Positions 2,050 to 15,345 of a stretch of 16,438 nucleotides of DNA are shown here, one piece after another; position 1 is the stretch's first letter; the number at the start of each line of letters is the position of its first letter. Position numbers and translations under genes: made by a program. Under the pieces are notes generated by a model. That model was given only the letters and a program-made list of their open reading frames with translations. It had not been told where the DNA came from and did not search any database. Origin of the DNA: Clostridium sp. CAG:1219. Lineage in GTDB: Bacteria > Bacillota > Clostridia > TANB77 > CAG-465. Location: the NCBI GenBank assembly GCA_000433335.1, contig HF996739.1, forward strand, positions 196-16,633, read 5' to 3'.

Positions 2050-2442
2050 CTATACTCTTCTTCTTTTTGGTGGTCTACAACCATTATGAGGTATTGGAGT
2101 TACATCTTTAATCATGTTAATTTCCAATCCTGCTGCTTGAAGTGATCTAATTGCTGCTTCACGACCAGCACCTGGTCCTTTAACAAACACTTCAACACTT
2201 TTTAAACCGTGTTCTTTTGCTTTTTCAGCTGCAGCTTCTGCTGCTTGACCTGCTGCAAAAGGAGTATTCTTTCTTGAACCTTTAAATCCAAGTCCACCAG
2301 CACTTGCCCAAGATAAAACATTACCTTGTTCGTCTGTCATTGTAATAATTGTATTATTAAATGAAGATTGAATATGAGCCGCACCAGTTGATACATTCTT
2401 TTTAATTTTTTTCTTTGTAACTACTTTTCTCTTTGCTGCCAT
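2050..2442 (-). CDS. rpsK: 30S ribosomal protein S11
   Basis: 130 aa, the usual length. S11 lies on the 30S platform next to the E site and anti-Shine-Dalgarno helix. Family signatures are clear: [15 protein letters not shown] near 20-34, [20 protein letters not shown] near 44-63, [13 protein letters not shown] near 89-101 and the basic tail [17 protein letters not shown]. The start at 2442 is 6 nt past the rpsM stop, and its AAAGGAG ribosome binding site lies inside the last rpsM codons, so the two genes are probably translationally coupled. Its TAG stop runs into the unusual GGGGGTG ribosome binding site of rpsD. Confidence 0.98.
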
Positions 2443-3496: not shown

Positions 3497-4108
3497 TTAA
3501 AAGCGTTCGTCAGAATTTCTATATTTAGATAAATCTTCAGCATGACTTGTTTTTACATGAGGTTTAATTTGGTCAACCCTTACAGTTTGATTTTTTAACT
3601 CATCATTAAACCTTTTTTCTTCTTGAAAGCTCTTCTCATATTCTTTACTTTCAAGTACCATATCATAGTATCCTTTTAAATTTTTATCAAAACTTCTACT
3701 TGGATTGCCCGTTTTTTGATCCCATTCTATTTTTCCAATATATCCATTTTGTATCTGCTCTACATCTTCATACCTAAAAAATCCTTTTGTTAGATTATAA
3801 TTTCCATTTGCTAAATATTGATAGTACCCTTTAGTATCATAATATACATTTCCTTGTTGGTCTTGCATAGTCATAGGATCCATAGCTATGTTTTTACTTA
3901 TGAACTTGCCATCAGGCATATAATATATTACTCTAGCTTCTTGGGAATATAACGCTTGTCCATTTTGGTCATAAACTTGGGAAAGATTTCCAAAATTCAC
4001 ATCACATCTTATTCCTGAATTATATGATAAAGATAAATCCGGCTGCTGTACTTGATAGTCATAATTTGAATTTGATTTATTTCTTTTAAAAAATTCTCTA
4101 AGTCCCAT
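3497..4108 (-). CDS. Hypothetical protein between map and infA
   Basis: 203 aa; I do not recognise the family. The ATG at 4108 follows AAGGAG at good spacing and lies 25 nt after map, so it is probably the last gene of the adk-map operon before the terminator at 3439. The N-terminus (MGLREFFKRN) is short, basic and amphipathic, with no signal peptide or membrane helix. Residues 45-112 are rich in Tyr, Asn, Gln and Gly, with repeated turn-like units (VYDQNGQALY, IYYMPDGKFI, DQQGNVYYDTKGYY, YLANGNYNLTKGFF) that suggest beta-hairpins. Residues 140-203 are charged and probably helical. In Bacillus and many relatives this slot holds a small KOW-domain protein (YbzG type). I see no KOW motif here, and the protein is about twice as long. 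No function is proposed. Confidence 0.85.
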   Translation of the reverse strand: MGLREFFKRNKSNSNYDYQVQQPDLSLSYNSGIRCDVNFGNLSQVYDQNGQALYSQEARVIYYMPDGKFISKNIAMDPMTMQDQQGNVYYDTKGYYQYLANGNYNLTKGFFRYEDVEQIQNGYIGKIEWDQKTGNPSRSFDKNLKGYYDMVLESKEYEKSFQEEKRFNDELKNQTVRVDQIKPHVKTSHAEDLSKYRNSDERF

Positions 4109-7885: not shown

Positions 7886-8779
7886 CTAATTTATTGCACT
7901 TCCATTAACATATAATTTGAATCCGTTGAAATCTATATTACTATTACTGCTATTAGCATTTTCAAATGAAGTTATGAAACTATCTCCTGTCAATTTTATT
8001 TTTGAAGTACTATCTAATTTTAGGGTTATTGATTTTGCTGTGTTTTCACTATTTATTTTACCTTCAAAATAAGATTCATTTATAAAACTAGTGTCAAGTA
8101 TTGATACTGAATCAACTGTTATATTTCCATACACTTTTTGATTCTCTAAAGTTAGTGTGACATCTCCTCCATTTTTTCCACTATTCCCCCATGAATCTGC
8201 CTTTATTCTTAAGAAATCCCCCTCAGAATCATTATTTACTATTTCATTATTATAAAGATATATACTAGCCTTTGTATTTGTAACGTATAAAGTATCCCCT
8301 TTATTTGTAATTATTTTATTATTCTTTGCAGTAAATTCTGCACTTCCATCTGCTGCATCTCCACTCATTGATTGATATAAAAATATATTTTTATAAGTTG
8401 TAGATTTTCCGTTCAATTTATTATTTGTATCTGTAAGTTCACAATTTGCAAAAGTAACAGAGTTTTTTCCTTCTATTACAACTCCTTCTGAAGCCTCTGA
8501 AACTAAAGTAGCATTTTTTACAGATATATTAGCTGTAGAATATATACTAGGTGATCCCTGCCCTTTTGTGTTGTAATTACCGCCATCTACTGTAACATTT
8601 TTCCCGCCTCTATCTGTTCTTATTGCAGCACTTGATATGCCATAAGTAGTTATATCTAAATTATATGCTTCCATATTTCCGCCACCTGTTGTCATAATTC
8701 CGCCAGAATTATCTTTTTTAGTAACTATTTTCGACTGATCTTTTTTGCTCAAAATAAGTTTGCATATTAAAAGCACCAA
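7886..8779 (-). pseudogene. C-terminal remnant of a right-handed beta-helix surface protein
   Basis: An open frame of 297 codons with a non-functional N-terminus. From about residue 18 (8730 leftward) the sequence is a regular beta-helix: NSGGIMTTGGGNMEAYNLDI, then VTVDGGNYNTKGQGSPSIYS, VTFANCELTD, IFLYQSMSGDAADGSAEF, DTLYVTNTKASIYLYNNEIV and more turns, rich in Asn, Ser, Thr and Gly. I know this pattern from large secreted Clostridia proteins often labelled carbohydrate-binding-domain proteins. Those have a signal peptide and several hundred more N-terminal residues, absent here. The first 17 codons come from reading the sensor-kinase remnant (8718-8848) in another frame, starting at a TTG without a ribosome binding site. 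The C-terminus looks natural (GFKLYVNGSAIN). It is most likely a dead fragment left by a deletion. The alternative, an expressed fusion, lacks any supporting start signal. Confidence 0.75.
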
Positions 8780-8848
8780 CTATAATTAATATGCTCAAAT
8801 TAATAATACATAGTAATGTAAAAAAACTTTATTTTTTAAGTTTTGCAT
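8718..8848 (-). pseudogene. N-terminal remnant of a sensor histidine kinase, frameshifted
   Basis: An ATG at 8848 follows GGAGGATG and overlaps the response-regulator remnant by 20 nt, the normal coupled layout of a two-component operon. It reads MQNLKNKVFLHYYVLLI and then hits TGA at 8795-8797. Restoring one T makes it continue LSILIIVGAFNMQTYFEQKR and SVENSY, the first transmembrane helix and start of the extracellular loop of a typical kinase. It then runs into sequence of the beta-helix protein at about 8720. No HAMP, H-box or ATPase domain follows. It therefore carries at least a 1-bp frameshift and a large deletion. Confidence 0.75.
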
Positions 8849-9063
8849 TTTCATCCTCCATTTTATATCCAAGTCCTCTAACCGCTTCTATTGTAACTGT
8901 AGTTCCAATTGCTTTTAATTTTCTTCTAATGAACGACAAATACACTTCTAGATTATTAGATTCAATTTCATTTTCAATTCCCCATACTTTATCATAAATT
9001 TGTTCTTTTGATAAAATTTGTTCCTTATTATTTATAAAATACTCTACTAATTGAAATTCTCAT
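8829..9063 (-). pseudogene. Response regulator remnant: OmpR/PhoB DNA-binding domain only
   Basis: Reading leftward from 9059, the frame gives EFQLVEYFINNKEQILSKEQ, IYDKVWGIENEIESNNLEVY, LSFIRRKLKAIG..VTIEAVRGLGYKMED and a TAA at 8829-8831. This is an OmpR/PhoB winged helix with its recognition helix and wing. The receiver domain and the first beta-strands of the effector domain are missing. Just upstream is a promoter, a GGTGAT ribosome binding site and ATGAGAATT, which looks like the natural start (MRI...) of a response regulator. The frame of that ATG is broken by one base and stops after 11 codons. The simplest reading is an internal deletion from the first codons to the effector domain, joined at a shared GAATT-like sequence. 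The product is not translatable as a useful regulator. Confidence 0.8.
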
Positions 9064-9192: not shown

Positions 9193-11571
9193 TTATAACA
9201 AGTCAAATAAATCCATTTGTGCTGATCTTGGAAGTCCTGCAAGACATCCAGCATTTTGTAAAGTTTCCATGGCTACTCTTCCTATTTTTGCTCTTATTGC
9301 AATATCTTCTATTGAAGAGAATTTTCCTTGTTCTCTAGCTGCTACAAATTTATTTGCATCAACTTCTCCAAATCCAGTAAGTGAGGATAGGGGAGGTCTT
9401 ATTCCATCTTCTTCTACTAAGAATTTTTTTACGTCTGATTTATAAATATCTACAGGTAAAAACTTTATTCCTCTTTCATTCATTTCCAAAACTAATTCTA
9501 GTATAGGATACATTGCTTTATCTTTTTGAGCTGCTTTATTTCCCTGCAAATCAATTTCTTTCATTTTTGCTAGTACCCTTTCTTTTCCATAAAGCATAGA
9601 ATCACTATCAAATTCATCTGCCCTAATAGACATAAATGAAGCATAATATGCCTTAGGTTCATGTACCTTAAACCATGCTATTCTGAAAGCATTAGTAACA
9701 TAGGCTGCAGCATGTGCTTTAGGGAACATATACTTTATCTTTTTACATGACGATATGTACCATTCTGGAACATTATTTTCCCTCATTATTTGCTCATACT
9801 CTGGAAATTTTGGATCTTTTAGAGCCTTTCCCTTACGTACCGTTTCCATAATTTTAAATGATTTTCCAGGATCTATTCCTTTATCTATTAAATAAATCAT
9901 TATATCGTCTCTTGTACATATTGCTTCATTTAGGGTTACTGTTCCTTCTTCAATTAATGTTTGAGCATTTCCAAGCCATACATCAGTACCATGTGAAAGT
10001 CCAGATATTCTAATAAGTTCTTCAAATGTTGTAGGTCTAGTATCAACAAGCATCCCACGTACAAACTTTGTTCCAAATTCTGGCACTCCATAACTTCCAA
10101 CTTCTGAGTGTATCTGTTCTTTAGTTACACCAAGTGCATCAGTTGATGAGAATATACTCATAGTTTCTTTATCATCAAGTGGAACTTTAGTTGGATCTAT
10201 TCCTGTTATATCAAATAACATACGTATCATTGTCGGATCATCATGTCCTAGTATATCAAGTTTTAATAGATTTCTATCTATTGAGTGATAATCAAAATGG
10301 GTAGTCTTTATAGAAGAGAACGGATCATCAGCTGGATGTTGAACAGGGCAAAAGTCAAATATTTCTCTTCCCTTTGGAACAACAACTATACCACCGGGAT
10401 GTTGACCAGAAGTCCTTTTTATTCCAGTACATCCAACTGAAATTCTAGAAATTTCAGCTTCTCTTTTTTTTATATTTCTCTCTTCATAATAGTTTTTAAC
10501 AAATCCATATGCTGTTTTATCTGCAACTGTACCTATTGTACCAGCCTTGTATGTAGTTCCTCTACCAAAAATAACTTCAGTATACTTATGAGCTTCTGCT
10601 TGATATTCACCGGAGAAGTTTAAGTCTATATCTGGTTCTTTATCTCCATTAAATCCCAAGAATGTTTCAAATGGTATATCCATTCCATCTTTATCAAGTT
10701 TATGACCACATTCTGGACAATCTTTATCAGGTAAATCAAATCCATTTTTAAATCCATGATCAGAAAAATCTGAATACTTACAATTTGGGCATCTATAATG
10801 AGCTTTTAATGAATTTACCTCAGTAATTCCTGTCATGTAAGCTGCAAGTGAAGAGCCAACTGAGCCACGGGATCCAACTATATATCCATGATCATTAGAA
10901 TCCCAAACAAGTCTTTGTGCAATTATATACATAACGGAATATCCATTAGATATAATAGAGTTTAACTCTTTATCAAGTCTTGTTTGTACTATTTCAGGAA
11001 GTGGATCTCCATAAAGTTTATGTGCTTTTTCCATGGCAATGTTTCTAATTTCCTGTTCACACCCTTCAATGTGTGGAGGGCACTTCTCATCAGAAATCGG
11101 ACTTATTCTATCGCACATATCTGCAACTTTATTAGTATTTGTTACAACAATCTCATATGCTCTCTCTTCTGGTAAATAGTCAAATTCCTTTAACATCTCA
11201 TTTGTAGTTCTAAAATACAATGGAGCTTGCGCATCCGCGTCGTCATATCCTTGACCTGCTTGCAATATTCTTCTATAAATTTCATCTTCTGCATTTAAAA
11301 AGTGTACATCACAAGTAGCAACTGTAAGCTTTCCAAGTTTATCTCCTACTTCTATTATCTTTTTATTTATATCAATTAATTCTTGATGAGTAAGTTTAAT
11401 AATTTTATATTCTTTTTCCTTCTCATCAACTAATTTATTATAATCCTTATTTTTAACTTTAGCGCCTCTTTCATAAAAAGCATTATTTCCAAGAGGTTGT
11501 ATTTCAAGATAATCATAATAAGAGGCTATCTCTAATATTTCTTCTTTACGCTTTTTATTTAATATTCTTCT
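9193..11571 (-). CDS. polC: DNA polymerase III PolC-type, C-terminal part (after the frameshift)
   Basis: The downstream part of PolC, open from 11571 to the stop at 9193. It contains the polymerase palm, fingers and C-terminal clamp-binding region. The zinc ribbon is C-P-N-C ... C-P-E-C, and the catalytic pair lies in PDIDLNFSG. Also present are the GSRGSVGSS nucleotide-binding loop, [38 protein letters not shown] and [16 protein letters not shown]. The C-terminus ends AQMDLFDLL, where Q-M-D-L-F fits the beta-clamp binding motif. The first codons ([20 protein letters not shown]) continue exactly where the N-terminal part stops, in the -1 frame. There is no ATG or ribosome binding site at the beginning; the first usable codon would be a TTG at 11265, which would delete conserved sequence. 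As written the two parts cannot make one protein. Confidence 0.92.
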
Positions 11572-11591
11572 TCACTCTTTTTATTTAATAT
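11540..11591 (-). repeat. 26-bp imperfect tandem duplication that breaks polC
   Basis: Two adjacent 26-bp units (11591-11566 and 11565-11540) differ at only 2 positions (AGTG versus CGTA in the coding sense). Since 26 is not a multiple of 3, the second copy shifts the frame and brings in TAA at 11561-11559. Removing one unit gives 4464 nt, exactly 1488 codons including the stop, and restores N-K-K-x-x-E-E-I-L-E-I-A. The first unit encodes KKSEEE, the commoner PolC wording; the second encodes KKRKEE. Confidence 0.9.
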
Positions 11592-13682
11592 TGCCTGATA
11601 CAGTTCGCCTTGTTCACAAGCACTTCCAAGTATAAGCCCCTCTTTATACCTATTTAACATAGATTTAAATATTTTGGGCTTTTTCTTAAAATAGTGAAGA
11701 TGTGAATAAGATATAAGTTTATATAAATTCTTAAGTCCCACGTAGTTTTTAGCTAAAATTATGATGTGATATGCTTTCTCTGCTACAACTTTTCCTATAT
11801 CTTTTTCACTATGTGCATAAGAATTAATGTCAATATTTTTCTTATTCAAATCTTCTTGCATTCTAATAAACATCTTTGCGGTTGCTCTTGTATCATTTAT
11901 AGCACGGTGAGCTCCTTCAAGTTCAATTCCAAGATCTTCTACTATTGTTCCTAGTTTCTTGTTTGGTAAATAATAATATATTTCTCTTGCTATCATCAGA
12001 GTATCTATTATTAAATTGTTAAACCTATCTTGATAACCATATTTTTCCACAAAGTATTGTAAAAAGTTTATATCAAAGTCTGCATTATGTGCAACTAAAA
12101 TAGAATCGCCAAAAAAATCTAATATCTTTGGAAGAACCTCCTCTATCGTTGGAGCATCTTTTACCATATCTTCTGTTATATGCGTTAAGTCTTGAACTTC
12201 CTTTGGTATATTTCTTTCTGGATTTATAAATGTAGTAAATTCATCTATTATTTTTCCATCTTTTACCTTACATATTGCTATTTCTGTTAACATATCATTT
12301 TTTCTAGGATCAAATCCTGTAGTTTCAGTATCAAATACACAATATGTGTCAGAAAATTTGGGATTTACAACTATATCATCAACTAAGTACCCCTCAACTC
12401 CATATATTACTTTAATTGGTGCGTTGTCTAGTATATCCTGAGTTGACACTCTAGACTTTCCTGTCTTTTCCATAGCAAGTTTTTCATAATTATCAACTAT
12501 AACATGATTAGCCTCAGGAAAAGATTGCGCAACTCCATGATCTGTTATAGCTACTGCTCTATGTCCCCATTTTATTGCTTGTTTTATTATGTCTTTTGCA
12601 GAAGACACAGCGTCCATAGCACTCATTTGTGTATGCATATGAAGTTCAGCTCTTTTTTCTTCTGCCTCATCTACTCTAGCTTTTGGTGGAGTAGATTCTA
12701 TTATACTAGTAATCATTATTGTTATATCATTTGAGTAAGTATCAAATTGTGGCCTTCCTTGAAGCTTTATATATGCTCCATCTTTTATTCTACCTTTTAC
12801 AGCCTCATATTTATCCTTGTTTAGAAATGATTTACAACTAATTGTATCCGTTTTATCAGTTACATTTAGTGTAACTAACATCTTACCACTTTTAGTTTCA
12901 CGCACATCAGATGAAAATATCTGACCGTTAATACATGCAAGCTGCATTTCATCTGTTACAGATGAAACACTTATTATTTGCTCTTCTGTTATATCTCTTC
13001 CTAATATAACAAATTCTGGTTGTTCTTCTTTTAAATCACGTATTCTTTTTTCTTCTTCTGAGAGCTGGACTTTTTTAAATACTGGCTTTTTTTCGTCTTT
13101 TATTTCATTATTATTATTATTTGCTTCACTAGAGATATTATTTAAATGTTTTTTTATAATATCTTCTATTTTTACCATATTAGGCTTAGAATCAATATTA
13201 GTATTTATTGTTGATGTATCATCATTCAAAAATACATCATAGTCTGTTCCAAATTTATTTTTTATTGACTTTTTAATATACATGTCTATCTGTTTTTGTT
13301 TTAGAAAGTCAGCAAATCTACTATAAAAAGTAATGTATATATTATTATCTTTAATATTTATCATACATATTCTAAAAGCTTCAAGTGTATAAACATATTT
13401 TGAAGTAACATCATTTATAATATCTCTTACTTTTCTCTCATCTATTTCAATTTTATCTCCGACATATTTATAATCAATTTTAAAACTTGTAAGTTTGTAT
13501 ATTTCTCTTGCCTCATTTTCAAACTTTTCTATATCATAAAGGGAAATGTTTTCAACACTTTCCACAGAAACGATAGCAGAATTTAGTTTTTTAGAAAACT
13601 TAATTTCTCCTATTTTTGAGTTTAAAATTTTAGCATTGGTAAGCTCTGTACTTTTAAAAACATCTTTTACCTTTTTATCCAT
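11559..13682 (-). CDS. polC: DNA polymerase III PolC-type, N-terminal part (before the frameshift)
   Basis: 707 codons. PolC is the leading-strand replicase of low-GC Gram-positives, with a built-in proofreading exonuclease. Domains in order are an N-terminal tau-binding region (about 1-170), a charged Asn-rich linker (about 180-222), and an OB fold (about 236-328). Then comes the first half of the PHP domain, with H348-x-H350 and TDHG at 380-383. The inserted DEDDh exonuclease has DTET at 451-454, HNADFD at 532-537 and H592...D597, followed by the second PHP half. It ends [20 protein letters not shown] and then the stop created by the duplication at 11540-11591. The start at 13682 has AGGGAG upstream and a strong promoter. 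Fused with the downstream part after removal of one repeat unit, PolC would be 1487 aa, slightly above the B. subtilis length. Confidence 0.93.
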
Positions 13683-13742: not shown

Positions 13743-13771
13743 TTGACAATTTGAGAAACGAGTAATATAAT
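13743..13771 (+). promoter_or_regulatory. Full-consensus SigA promoter for the 79-aa gene
   Basis: TTGACA (13743-13748), 17 nt, TATAAT (13766-13771): both hexamers are perfect consensus at the optimal spacing. Start of transcription is expected near 13779, about 40 nt upstream of the ATG. Confidence 0.9.
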
Positions 13772-13820
13772 AAGTTAAAGTTTAGTTTTAACCTTTATTT
13801 TATTATTAAGGAGGATCAAT

Positions 13821-14060
13821 ATGCGGGCTATAGTAAGGCTAGATTTTCTGGATGTCACTCAGAAAAAGAAAAATTATTCGGTTACTTTAAGACGCAACTC
13901 ATGTTTTACAGTTACATTTAAAACTGAAAATACATCTCCAATAAACGGAAAATTTATATCAATATATAAAACGCTAGTAAAATATAAAGATATTTATACT
14001 GGAGACATTGGCTACTTTAAAATTCCGGATATTTTTTATATGTACGTAGATAAATTTTAA
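13821..14060 (+). CDS. Hypothetical 79-aa protein, monocistronic and probably highly expressed
   Basis: I do not recognise this family. The ATG at 13821 follows AAGGAGG at good spacing, a full-consensus promoter lies about 50 nt upstream, and a terminator begins 6 nt after the stop, so the gene is almost certainly real. The sequence starts MRAIVRLDFLDVTQKKKNYS. It alternates hydrophobic and polar residues in several likely beta-strands (YSVTLRRN, CFTVTFKT, GKFISIYKTLVKYK, GYFKIPDIFYMYVDKF). It is basic, has no signal peptide or membrane helix, and has a single Cys. A small all-beta fold (SH3- or OB-like) is possible. It lies divergent from polC and upstream of the OLE unit, but the terminator separates it from both. 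No function is proposed. Confidence 0.8.
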   Translation: MRAIVRLDFLDVTQKKKNYSVTLRRNSCFTVTFKTENTSPINGKFISIYKTLVKYKDIYTGDIGYFKIPDIFYMYVDKF

Positions 14061-14065
14061 TGTTT

Positions 14066-14094
14066 AAAATCTGCTATATTAGGCAGATTTTTTT
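14066..14094 (+). terminator. Terminator of the 79-aa gene
   Basis: AAAATCTGC (14066-14074) pairs perfectly with GCAGATTTT (14083-14091) around an 8-nt loop, within a run of seven T. It lies 17 nt upstream of the -35 box of the OLE promoter. Confidence 0.88.
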
Positions 14095-14110
14095 CTTTTA
14101 CATCCGATTT

Positions 14111-14139
14111 TTGCATTTATTTTAATGTTATGGTATAAT
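14111..14139 (+). promoter_or_regulatory. Promoter for the OLE RNA-oapA unit
   Basis: TTGCAT (14111-14116), 17 nt, TATAAT (14134-14139), with TGG upstream giving an extended -10. Transcription should start at about 14146-14147, the first base of the sequence that pairs with the 3' end of the RNA. Confidence 0.85.
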
Positions 14140-14146
14140 ATATATT

Positions 14147-14730
14147 GATGGTGCATTATTCTAGTTGCACGTATTGTTATGAGGGTGGGGCTAAAAATCC
14201 ACTAAAAGGCACATCGTTGAAGTTTCTTGTTTATGCGCGTTACGCCCAGTTTTGTGTATTTTCAGGAAGTAAGATTTTAGGGATAAATATAACGGCATAT
14301 ATTCTTTCCCCTATTTTCGCGGAGGCTTCAAATATTCATTATCTAACTTATTTGGAGTATAACCTATATTGAGTGCCAAGACACAAAATATAGTGTAGCC
14401 TGTCTCGAGTGATGGTATTGGGATTTATTAAAAAGTAAAAATGAGTTATGGCCATAGCATGTTTTTATATGATAATGAAACTATTATTGCAAAAAAGACT
14501 AATAACAATACACGCAATAAAAGGAAAACTTCTAGAATGTTTGCTATATAAGCAAGAGTATTTAGGGATTAAGGTACGGATTTAAGTGGCGATCTAGTTT
14601 CTTGACAAGGCAACTTCAAGATGCTGTTTTTAAATGGAAACAGCCAAATAGTAATGTTTGGTATAGCAGTAGAGAAATTCTACTAGACCTCAAACCGTAA
14701 AATTTACCTAATTACTACCATCTTTTTTTT
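14147..14730 (+). ncRNA. ole: OLE RNA (Ornate Large Extremophilic RNA)
   Basis: About 575-584 nt with its own promoter, no sustained coding capacity and abundant potential pairing. It lies directly upstream of a gene matching OapA, the membrane partner of OLE RNA; OLE RNAs are about 600 nt. The 5' end GATGGT (14147-14152) pairs with ACCATC (14717-14722), closing the molecule, and eight T follow. Other stems seen are GTGCA/TGCAC near the 5' end; GCTGTTT (14623-14629) with AAACAGC (14638-14644); and a compound arm of GTTTG (14656-14660) with CAAAC (14691-14695) enclosing AGTAGA (14668-14673) with TCTACT (14679-14684). The body is more GC-rich than neighbouring intergenic DNA. OLE RNA and OapA form a membrane ribonucleoprotein linked to alcohol, cold and Mg2+ responses. 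The identification rests on position, size, structure and partner, since no covariance model could be run. tmRNA, RNase P RNA and 6S RNA do not fit. Confidence 0.85.
14717..14730 (+). terminator. Closing 3' arm of OLE RNA plus U8: possible leaky terminator before oapA
   Basis: ACCATC (14717-14722), which can pair with the RNA's 5' end about 570 nt upstream, is followed at once by eight T. This resembles a terminator built on a long-range helix. It would define the 3' end of OLE RNA while letting some transcripts continue into oapA, whose AAGGAG site is at about 14735. No separate oapA promoter was seen in the 20 nt between. Confidence 0.45.
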
Positions 14731-14750
14731 ATTTAAGGAGATTTATTAAA

Positions 14751-15311
14751 ATGAAAACAAATAAAAAAGGAAACAAAAATTCCAATTTAAAATGGACTAT
14801 AACCGTTTTAATATTAACTTTTTTGCTTTCTTTATTATTTTCTTATATTTCAACTGAGCCAATTAGCAGATTAAACCTACTTCCTGCTACAATAATACTA
14901 ATAGTAGTTATTCTTACAGGTGTATTTTTTGATATTGTTGGTGTTGCAGTTACTGTTGCTGGTGAAGATAGCTTTCACGCGAAAGCAACAAAAAAAATTG
15001 GAGGTGCTAAAACTTCAATAAAACTTATCAGAAATTCTTCAAAAGTTTCTAACTTTTGTAATGACGTTATTGGTGATATCTGTGGAGTTTTAAGTGGTTC
15101 TATAGCAGCTTTAATTTCAGTTAAAATAACCACATTTTATGAACTTAGCTTCAACATTCAATTTTTAGTTGGTGCTATTGTCGCTTCTCTTACCGTTGGA
15201 GGAAAAGCGGTTGGTAAAAATATAGCAATAAAAAATTGTGAAATTATAGTAGATAAAGTAAGTAAGATTTTGAATATATTTTCAAAGAAAGAAAAAAAAG
15301 ACCAAAAATAA
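14751..15311 (+). CDS. oapA: OLE-associated membrane protein OapA
   Basis: 186 aa, close to the known OapA length of roughly 190. It binds OLE RNA and anchors it to the cell membrane. Four hydrophobic segments are visible at about 14-33, 44-66, 108-126 and 134-152. The loop between the second and third is basic (HAKATKKIGGAKTSIKLIRN), suitable for RNA contact, and the C-terminal tail is Lys-rich (IFSKKEKKDQK). The D-x-x-x-D motif reported for the family is present as D105-V-I-G-D109, and another Asp, D61, lies in the second helix. The N-terminus (MKTNKKGNKNSNLKW) is basic and is not a cleaved signal. The start at 14751 has AAGGAG upstream. It directly follows the OLE RNA and ends in a strong terminator. 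Loose similarity of the second helix and basic loop to DUF21/CNNM-type Mg2+ transport proteins is an inference, not a measured match. Confidence 0.85.
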   Translation: MKTNKKGNKNSNLKWTITVLILTFLLSLLFSYISTEPISRLNLLPATIILIVVILTGVFFDIVGVAVTVAGEDSFHAKATKKIGGAKTSIKLIRNSSKVSNFCNDVIGDICGVLSGSIAALISVKITTFYELSFNIQFLVGAIVASLTVGGKAVGKNIAIKNCEIIVDKVSKILNIFSKKEKKDQK

Positions 15312-15345
15312 ATACTGTAGCCAAAACTACAGTATTTATTTTTTT
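15304..15345 (+). terminator. Bidirectional terminator between oapA and the ATP-grasp gene
   Basis: A 17-bp perfect inverted repeat (15304-15320 with 15327-15343) has the core AAATACTGTAG around a CCAAAA loop and ends in T on both strands. It serves oapA on the plus strand and the convergent ATP-grasp gene, whose TAA stop at 15346-15344 lies at its edge, on the minus strand. Confidence 0.9.

Follow-up and report, generated by a model that had tools for sequence, protein, structure and literature searches.

A stand-alone ole-oapA locus in Clostridium sp. CAG:1219, from a lineage whose OLE particle probably functions without OapB and OapC

OLE is an RNA of about 600 nucleotides (nt) that the protein OapA carries to the membrane, with roles in ethanol and cold resistance and in Mg2+ homeostasis, and one property expected of an OapA protein is that it binds OLE RNA in a 2:1 ratio. 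It is among the largest structured bacterial RNAs with a biochemical function that is not known. In published systems, OLE is an abundant RNA bound by OapA (PMC12265935), and the D-x-x-x-D motif of OapA, together with the sites of OapA, OapB, OapC, and bS21, is described in the available text of PMC11332333, PMC12265935, PMC9723947, PMC12054373, and PMC12286853. Here, we compare with those systems a locus in a 16,438-nt stretch of Clostridium sp. CAG:1219 (contig HF996739.1, positions 196 to 16,633; the window), in which an earlier note had recognized an OLE RNA followed by oapA. As an explanation of the whole, we are confident that the locus is a stand-alone ole-oapA pair and that its lineage most likely has a particle that does without OapB and OapC. 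Model matching, homology, covariation, and comparative promoter data establish both genes and the order in which they lie; their transcription is presumed from the sequence.

The Rfam OLE model (RF01071) matched the window at 14132 to 14737 on the plus strand with 342.2 bits (E value, 1.9e-97; gathering score, 50). The match spans model positions 1 to 616 of 616 and is not cut off, which bears out the identification in the earlier note, and for 149 model base pairs the window has a letter at each of the two positions, 131 of these being standard pairs. The size given before, about 580 nt of structured RNA, is better restated as a match of 606 nt, or 576 nt from P1 to P1 (14147 to 14722). Judged by where the promoter and the U run behind P1 lie, the mature RNA probably extends from about 14146 to about 14730, and 13 nt separate the end of the match from the start of oapA. 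The features of the locus are as follows.

14110 to 14139, plus strand: sigma-A-type promoter of ole, TTTGCA (14110 to 14115), spacer of 18, and TATAAT (14134 to 14139), with TG before the -10
14132 to 14737, plus strand: OLE RNA (RF01071), by covariance model match and covariation
14147 to 14152, plus strand: 5' strand of P1, partner 14717 to 14722, then a U run (14723 to 14730)
14158 to 14164, plus strand: 5' strand of P2, partner 14532 to 14538
14171 to 14180, plus strand: 5' strand of P3, 10 base pairs with 14502 to 14511
14184 to 14203, plus strand: P4 with invariant A-rich loop, by model fit, alignment, and covariation
14223 to 14318, plus strand: P5/P5.1 and P6/P6.1, by model fit and covariation; site names from PMC12265935 and PMC12054373
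14326 to 14357, plus strand: P7, with 8 of its 9 model pairs standard in the window; most full-length OLE controls have a longer P7
14364 to 14393, plus strand: P8 with the clade-specific tip GUGCCAAGACAC, by aligned-row count
14402 to 14499, plus strand: P9 arm with palindromic GGCC apical loop, by model match and alignment
14622 to 14671, plus strand: P12.2/P13-type arm with apical loop A-GUAA-U (not G-GNRA-C), by aligned-row count
14751 to 15311, plus strand: oapA, 186 amino acids (aa), by homology, D105-x-x-x-D109, and modelled fold
15304 to 15343, no strand assigned: terminator-like hairpin, called by the scan only for the minus strand; plus-side T run by eye

The mapping of P numbers to window coordinates was made in this analysis. 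According to the available literature, the vicinity of P2 is one mapped OapA site, P3 is argued to necessarily cross the membrane (PMC12265935), and the P4 loop is a dimer contact in cryo-electron microscopy structures. The P5/P6 region holds the sites of the OapC k-turn, bS21, and the P5.1-P6.1 kissing loops (PMC12265935, PMC12054373), the P9 loop forms a symmetric kissing loop in the dimer, and the OapB site is placed at the P12.2/P13 arm, for variant 1 at the end of P13 (PMC11332333). The window locus shares with OLE of Halalkalibacterium halodurans and Clostridium acetobutylicum the full-length match, the P1-to-P9 layout, the A-rich P4 loop, the GGCC P9 loop, an oapA gene directly downstream, and its own promoter. 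However, its P7 is below the control median, it has the A-GUAA-U loop and a hairpin at the tip of P8, and OapB and OapC were not found in its relatives.

Conservation of the RNA was examined in an alignment of the window OLE with 69 of the 80 loci encoding the closest OapA relatives (70 rows, 69 distinct). The other 11 loci were excluded: 5 were cut by contig ends, 5 had split or partial matches, and 1 had no match. When P1 was added to the Rfam structure, 87.0% of cells were paired, versus 37.6 to 48.8% when the structure was slid by 1 to 3 columns, a comparison in which the Rfam model, being fitted to the window, has an edge. Both sides changed in 88 of 155 pairs, against 65.5 in shuffles, and none of 500 shuffles reached as high. 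P1 was paired in 100% of cells, in every row, with both-side changes in 3 of its 6 pairs, and the main block of P3 showed both-side changes in 8 of 9 pairs with 88.3% of cells paired, its outermost pair being weak (39%). For P2, where among the distinct rows 5 of 7 pairs are invariant and 2 vary on one side only, covariation is uninformative. The OLE RNA of this clade is under selection, on the evidence of covariation, invariant loops, a conserved promoter, and the complete co-occurrence of OLE and OapA in 36 genomes: in the family of the nearest relatives, 24 of these genomes have the two together, and the remaining 12 have neither.

Those observations bear directly on another explanation, in which a small genome has retained OLE only in a decaying or defective state, while OapA functions by itself as a small ion transporter of the CNNM type. 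OLE scores in the clade do run from 285 to 390 bits, with one at 193, whereas most full-length hits score about 400 to 560 bits; OapB and OapC were not found in 56 clade genomes; and loci L006, L040, and L055 are without distal P9 and L032 without P5 to P8. Nevertheless, covariation and invariant loops hold over 69 distinct rows, the promoter is conserved, and OLE and OapA co-occur without exception across the 36 genomes, and we regard decay as very improbable.

Individual loci depart from the common layout in other ways. In L032 (9214 to 9587), OLE is about 374 nt long, P5 to P8 apparently being deleted, which is either real or an assembly error. A palindromic insertion, which by eye resembles a miniature inverted-repeat transposable element, lies inside the P9 arm of L042 (9127 to 9875). 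In L027 (9031 to 9619) and L047 (9261 to 9849), the conserved J4a/5 segment, J6/7, P7, and P8 look lost or replaced together, a pattern that fits the J4a/5-J6/7 pairing (k-turn 1b) described in the available literature. The P9 apical palindrome is AGCU, not GGCC, in L004, L005, L007, L009, and their kin, in agreement with the symmetric kissing-loop covariation reported there. Split OLE RNAs in genomes G130, G165, and G196 were taken as assembly breaks. Among the matches listed, the pieces of G130 and of G165 stop no more than about 250 bases short of a contig end, and the pieces of G196 start no more than about 85 bases into a contig; two further matches in G130 and one in G165 lie outside this reading. 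The OLE of G265 likewise lies at the end of its contig.

The promoter had been described as a strong, extended -10 element. TG and TATAAT are indeed there, and the -10 is found at the same place in all 70 aligned loci, as TATAAT in 67 and as a near match in the other 3. TG precedes it in 42 of the 70, and the -35 has at least 4 of 6 matches in 67 of 70 (best of four spacings), versus about 22% of background positions. A promoter scan of the window found 8 sites against a mean of 9.9 in shuffles, no excess, so the support for the promoter is comparative. Together with this promoter-like site, a terminator-like hairpin upstream (14066 to 14091, between a 79-aa open reading frame [ORF] and ole) and the hairpin downstream of oapA make ole-oapA look like a transcription unit of its own. 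The terminator proposed after the protein is present as a hairpin, but the scan calls it on the minus strand only; given the plus-side T run seen by eye beside that call, the hairpin is apparently common to oapA and a convergent ATP-grasp gene.

Another possible reading is that the RNA acts chiefly in cis, as a long structured 5' leader through which oapA expression is controlled, rather than as a partner in trans. The 13-nt gap between the end of the match and oapA would suit a leader, and the U run after P1 could serve as its terminator. We consider this very unlikely, since published OLE is abundant and OapA bound (PMC12265935) and the size, the dimer loops, and P3 are conserved here; both roles could also coexist.

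By homology, the ORF at 14751 to 15311 is OapA. An OapA homolog adjoins OLE in all 30 full-length-OLE loci used as controls (31 to 52% identity; E values of 1e-12 to 1e-28), and D-x-x-x-D is present in all 30 of these proteins and invariant in 21 aligned OapA sequences. The homolog search returned 3,595 of 4,009 candidates at E values up to 1e-3, and no analysis placed the protein in another membrane family, so that its earlier naming as OapA holds. Of the earlier description as a 186-aa four-helix protein, the length, the D-x-x-x-D motif (D105 to D109, in the third long helix), and the basic stretch (about residues 78 to 98) stand, whereas the model has five helices of at least 23 residues (9 to 38, 43 to 73, 96 to 130, 137 to 161, and 163 to 185). 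The last of these is of low confidence, and the first four were taken by eye as putative membrane helices. The modelled fold matches CNNM transmembrane domains, a relation already published for OapA (PMC11332333), and the best Pfam hint was likewise CNNM, at an E value of 0.0074, below the cutoff; a sequence search of the PDB gave no match at E values up to 1. In length, membrane-type helices, basic stretch, motif, position after OLE, and CNNM-like fold, the protein shows no notable difference from known OapA. It differs from the MpfA/CNNM Mg2+ transporters (CorB, CorC) in being without a CBS or CorC domain and in carrying D-x-x-x-D, which the available text of PMC11332333 states to be absent from CNNM domains. 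MpfA proteins combine CNNM, tandem CBS, and CorC_HlyC domains; the window protein, at 186 aa, gave a sub-threshold CNNM match only. Among viral contigs, 82 pattern matches to OapA were found, and none was confirmed.

The earlier note called the locus self-contained. The ole-oapA pair does stand alone, but the term needs care, because the functions cited for it are those of H. halodurans OLE, which depends on OapB and OapC as well, and neither was found in the 56 relatives, which are the genomes searched for the 80 loci. All 12 control genomes examined that have full-length OLE carry a KOW-type gene (oapB) between map and infA, and the protein from one of them matches PDB entry 7k9b, "OLE-associated protein B," with an E value of 4.5e-13. 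That interval was without an ORF of at least 45 aa in 10 of 10 clade loci examined, a second infA-like hit of G004 (L151) being excluded from the count. In the window, oapB is not at this usual place, which is taken by an unrelated ORF.

3497 to 4108, minus strand: orphan ORF of 203 aa between map and infA, the place of oapB in full-length-OLE genomes; four homologs found

An OapB profile built from 11 proteins found its target in 16 of 16 controls and in 0 of 56 clade genomes, and an OapC profile built from 12 proteins scored 96 to 147 bits in 16 of 16 controls and found no OapC in the 56 clade genomes (best score, 37.7 bits); as 11 and 12 of these controls, respectively, went into the profiles, this leaves 5 and 4 as independent tests. 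Genes of the L7Ae type are present in 49 of the 56 clade genomes, and the 15 readable ones look like YlxQ. One such protein that was tested matches BH2414 and YlxQ in the PDB, and one control OapC matches YbxF. Of the 56 clade genomes, 51 have bS21, as do 15 of 16 controls. For clades of this kind, the loss of OapB and OapC has already been published (PMC11332333).

Two details of the RNA set the clade apart from the 30 control loci when read in the 70 aligned rows and 5 odd loci. The P13-type apical loop is A-GYAA-U in 70 of 70 rows and 5 of 5 odd loci (75 of 75 read) and G-GNRA-C in 30 of 30 controls, 25 by pattern and 5 by eye; in these 5 the flanking word differs, and the loop was read as GGCGAC or GGTGAC. 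The tip of P8 is exactly GUGCCAAGACAC in 61 of the 70 rows and has a compensatory form, AUGCCAAGACAU, in which the closing G-C is changed to A-U, in 6, the consensus RUGCCAAGACAY covering 67 of 70. This hairpin is missing from L006, L027, and L055 among the aligned rows and from three of the five odd loci (L032, L047, and L048), and it was seen in 0 of 30 controls. The P13-type change appears to run in step with the absence of OapB, judging from the relatives.

Fernando and Breaker (2024; PMC11332333) described OLE variant 1 as the TANB77 clade, with shorter P7, P8, and P9, altered or missing OapB-site nucleotides, and neither OapB nor OapC. The present lineage resembles variant 1, as far as the available text describes it, in its uncultured small-genome relatives, in that OapB and OapC were not found in those relatives, in its altered OapB-site nucleotides, and in its shortened P7 (34 nt versus a control median of 47). 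It differs in P8, which at 29 to 31 nt is not shorter than the control median of 30, and the comparison of P9 lengths was set aside, P9 being readable in 9 of 30 controls. For these two reasons, assignment to variant 1 is only partly supported. The variant-1 consensus drawn in PMC11332333 may perhaps already show the P8 tip and the P13 loop.

Published work reports that MpfA anticorrelates with OLE, in an analysis from which variant-OLE species were further on excluded, that some species have both, and that OLE carriers as a rule have at most one MpfA (PMC11332333). A replacement of OLE by MpfA was not seen in this clade, where CNNM and CorC_HlyC are usually present alongside OLE. CNNM scores exceeded 160 bits in 46 of the 56 clade genomes versus 4 of 16 controls, with a partial match of 79 bits in G123, and CorC_HlyC was found in 45 of 56 versus 4 of 16. 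In the nearest family, 20 of the 24 genomes with OLE and 11 of the 12 without it have CNNM above 70 bits. Two close relatives, G009 and G011, are without a CNNM/MpfA-type protein, and G001 has CNNM without CorC_HlyC. These counts suggest, weakly because the genomes are related drafts and not independent events, that MpfA is no simple replacement for OLE in this lineage. They do not contradict the published anticorrelation, as the available text of PMC11332333 itself notes species with both.

CNNM-type genes also turned up near some of the loci. In nine genomes (L196 to L204, the family of G011), genes for proteins of about 340 to 360 aa lie on the same strand a few kilobases downstream of ole-oapA, with a convergent gene and two others between in seven of the nine and one more convergent gene in two. 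In G003, G211, G212, and G213, the CNNM/CorC gene apparently frameshifts at the same spot in the CorC_HlyC domain.

For the stand-alone pair, we propose that the sigma-A-type promoter would yield an OLE RNA of about 576 to 600 nt, with oapA directly after it. By analogy with the published OLE of H. halodurans and Clostridium, OapA would bind the RNA near P2 and P4a and hold it at the membrane, and the RNA would dimerize through the P4, P5.1/P6.1, and P9 loops, all of which are present in the window. The particle may, again by analogy, support adaptation to stress and Mg2+, and the relatives suggest a core in this lineage of OLE, OapA, and perhaps bS21, without OapB and OapC.

Several points weigh against this account. 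Transcript, binding, and phenotype are putative here, and to our knowledge the biochemical function of OLE is not known even in the model species. That the window organism is without OapB and OapC would follow from its relatives, which are draft bins of unstated completeness and cover the genomes of 56 of the 80 loci. One independent control of each profile (G191) is a near copy of G164, which further reduces the small independent sets. Across the clade, pairing is poor in distal P9 (55 to 62%), in the upper stem of P8 (62%), and at the tip of the arm at 14600 to 14621 (43% of cells), quite apart from the edge of the fitted structure over its slid versions. Finally, the P13 label of the changed arm is a reading of published names.

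A more elaborate proposal, tentative and on the doubtful side, is that the particle has been pared to OLE and OapA (perhaps with bS21), with OapB and OapC gone, the P13 loop changed, the newly fixed P8 tip serving for stabilization or protein binding, and CNNM/MpfA kept. Since CNNM/MpfA-type proteins would be kept beside such a pared particle, its remaining function would be one that MpfA cannot replace. A lineage that retains the OLE-OapA pair, often together with an MpfA-type protein and with neither OapB nor OapC found, distinguishes what is core to the particle from what is accessory and gives a way to test whether MpfA replaces OLE. For such tests, the window locus would serve as a compact natural construct.

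As a discovery of OLE in Clostridia, the locus is ordinary. The earlier note had taken it to extend OLE to what looked like a mesophilic member of that class, but the OLE-OapA pairing is known, OLE in anaerobic Clostridia is well known (PMC11332333), and OLE was found in 148 of 199 genomes sampled from the phylum of G001 and in 0 of 14 well-known control genomes. Among the titles of the top 80 OapA relatives, 79 mention Clostridia, Clostridium, Clostridiaceae, or Eubacteriales, and the other mentions Erysipelotrichaceae. The majority are bins from uncultured organisms, and rumen, cecum, ileum, rectum, or chicken appears in a few of the titles. The clade genomes searched are about 1.0 to 2.4 Mb, and the G+C content of the window is 29%.

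Elsewhere in the window, a PYLIS_3 candidate at 2100 to 2186 (minus strand) was dismissed as a chance match, with 21.7 bits against a cutoff of 38, an E value of 0.8, and a position inside the frame 2050 to 2442. The 79-aa ORF upstream of ole (13743 to 14060, plus strand) has a perfect promoter (TTGACA-17-TATAAT, 12 of 12), nine homologs, and no Pfam or NCBIfam match at an E value of 1e-3. The polC gene (9193 to 13682, minus strand) reads as two ORFs of 707 and 690 aa with a break near 11533 to 11592, at an imperfect tandem duplication of 26 to 27 bases that brings a stop; the lesion may be genuine, or the assembly may have merged two or more strains. Beside it, 7886 to 9060 (minus strand) contains apparent remnants of a response-regulator/kinase pair (the regulator recognized by eye) that continue into a frame of 297 aa, for which a beta-helix match is weak (E value, 0.014), and looks like a decayed or rearranged stretch. 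Among the clade loci, a cluster of 22 ORFs neighboring ole-oapA, short-chain dehydrogenase-like by eye and downstream of oapA in the six cases listed, is perhaps dltE, which the available literature names as a neighbor of ole.
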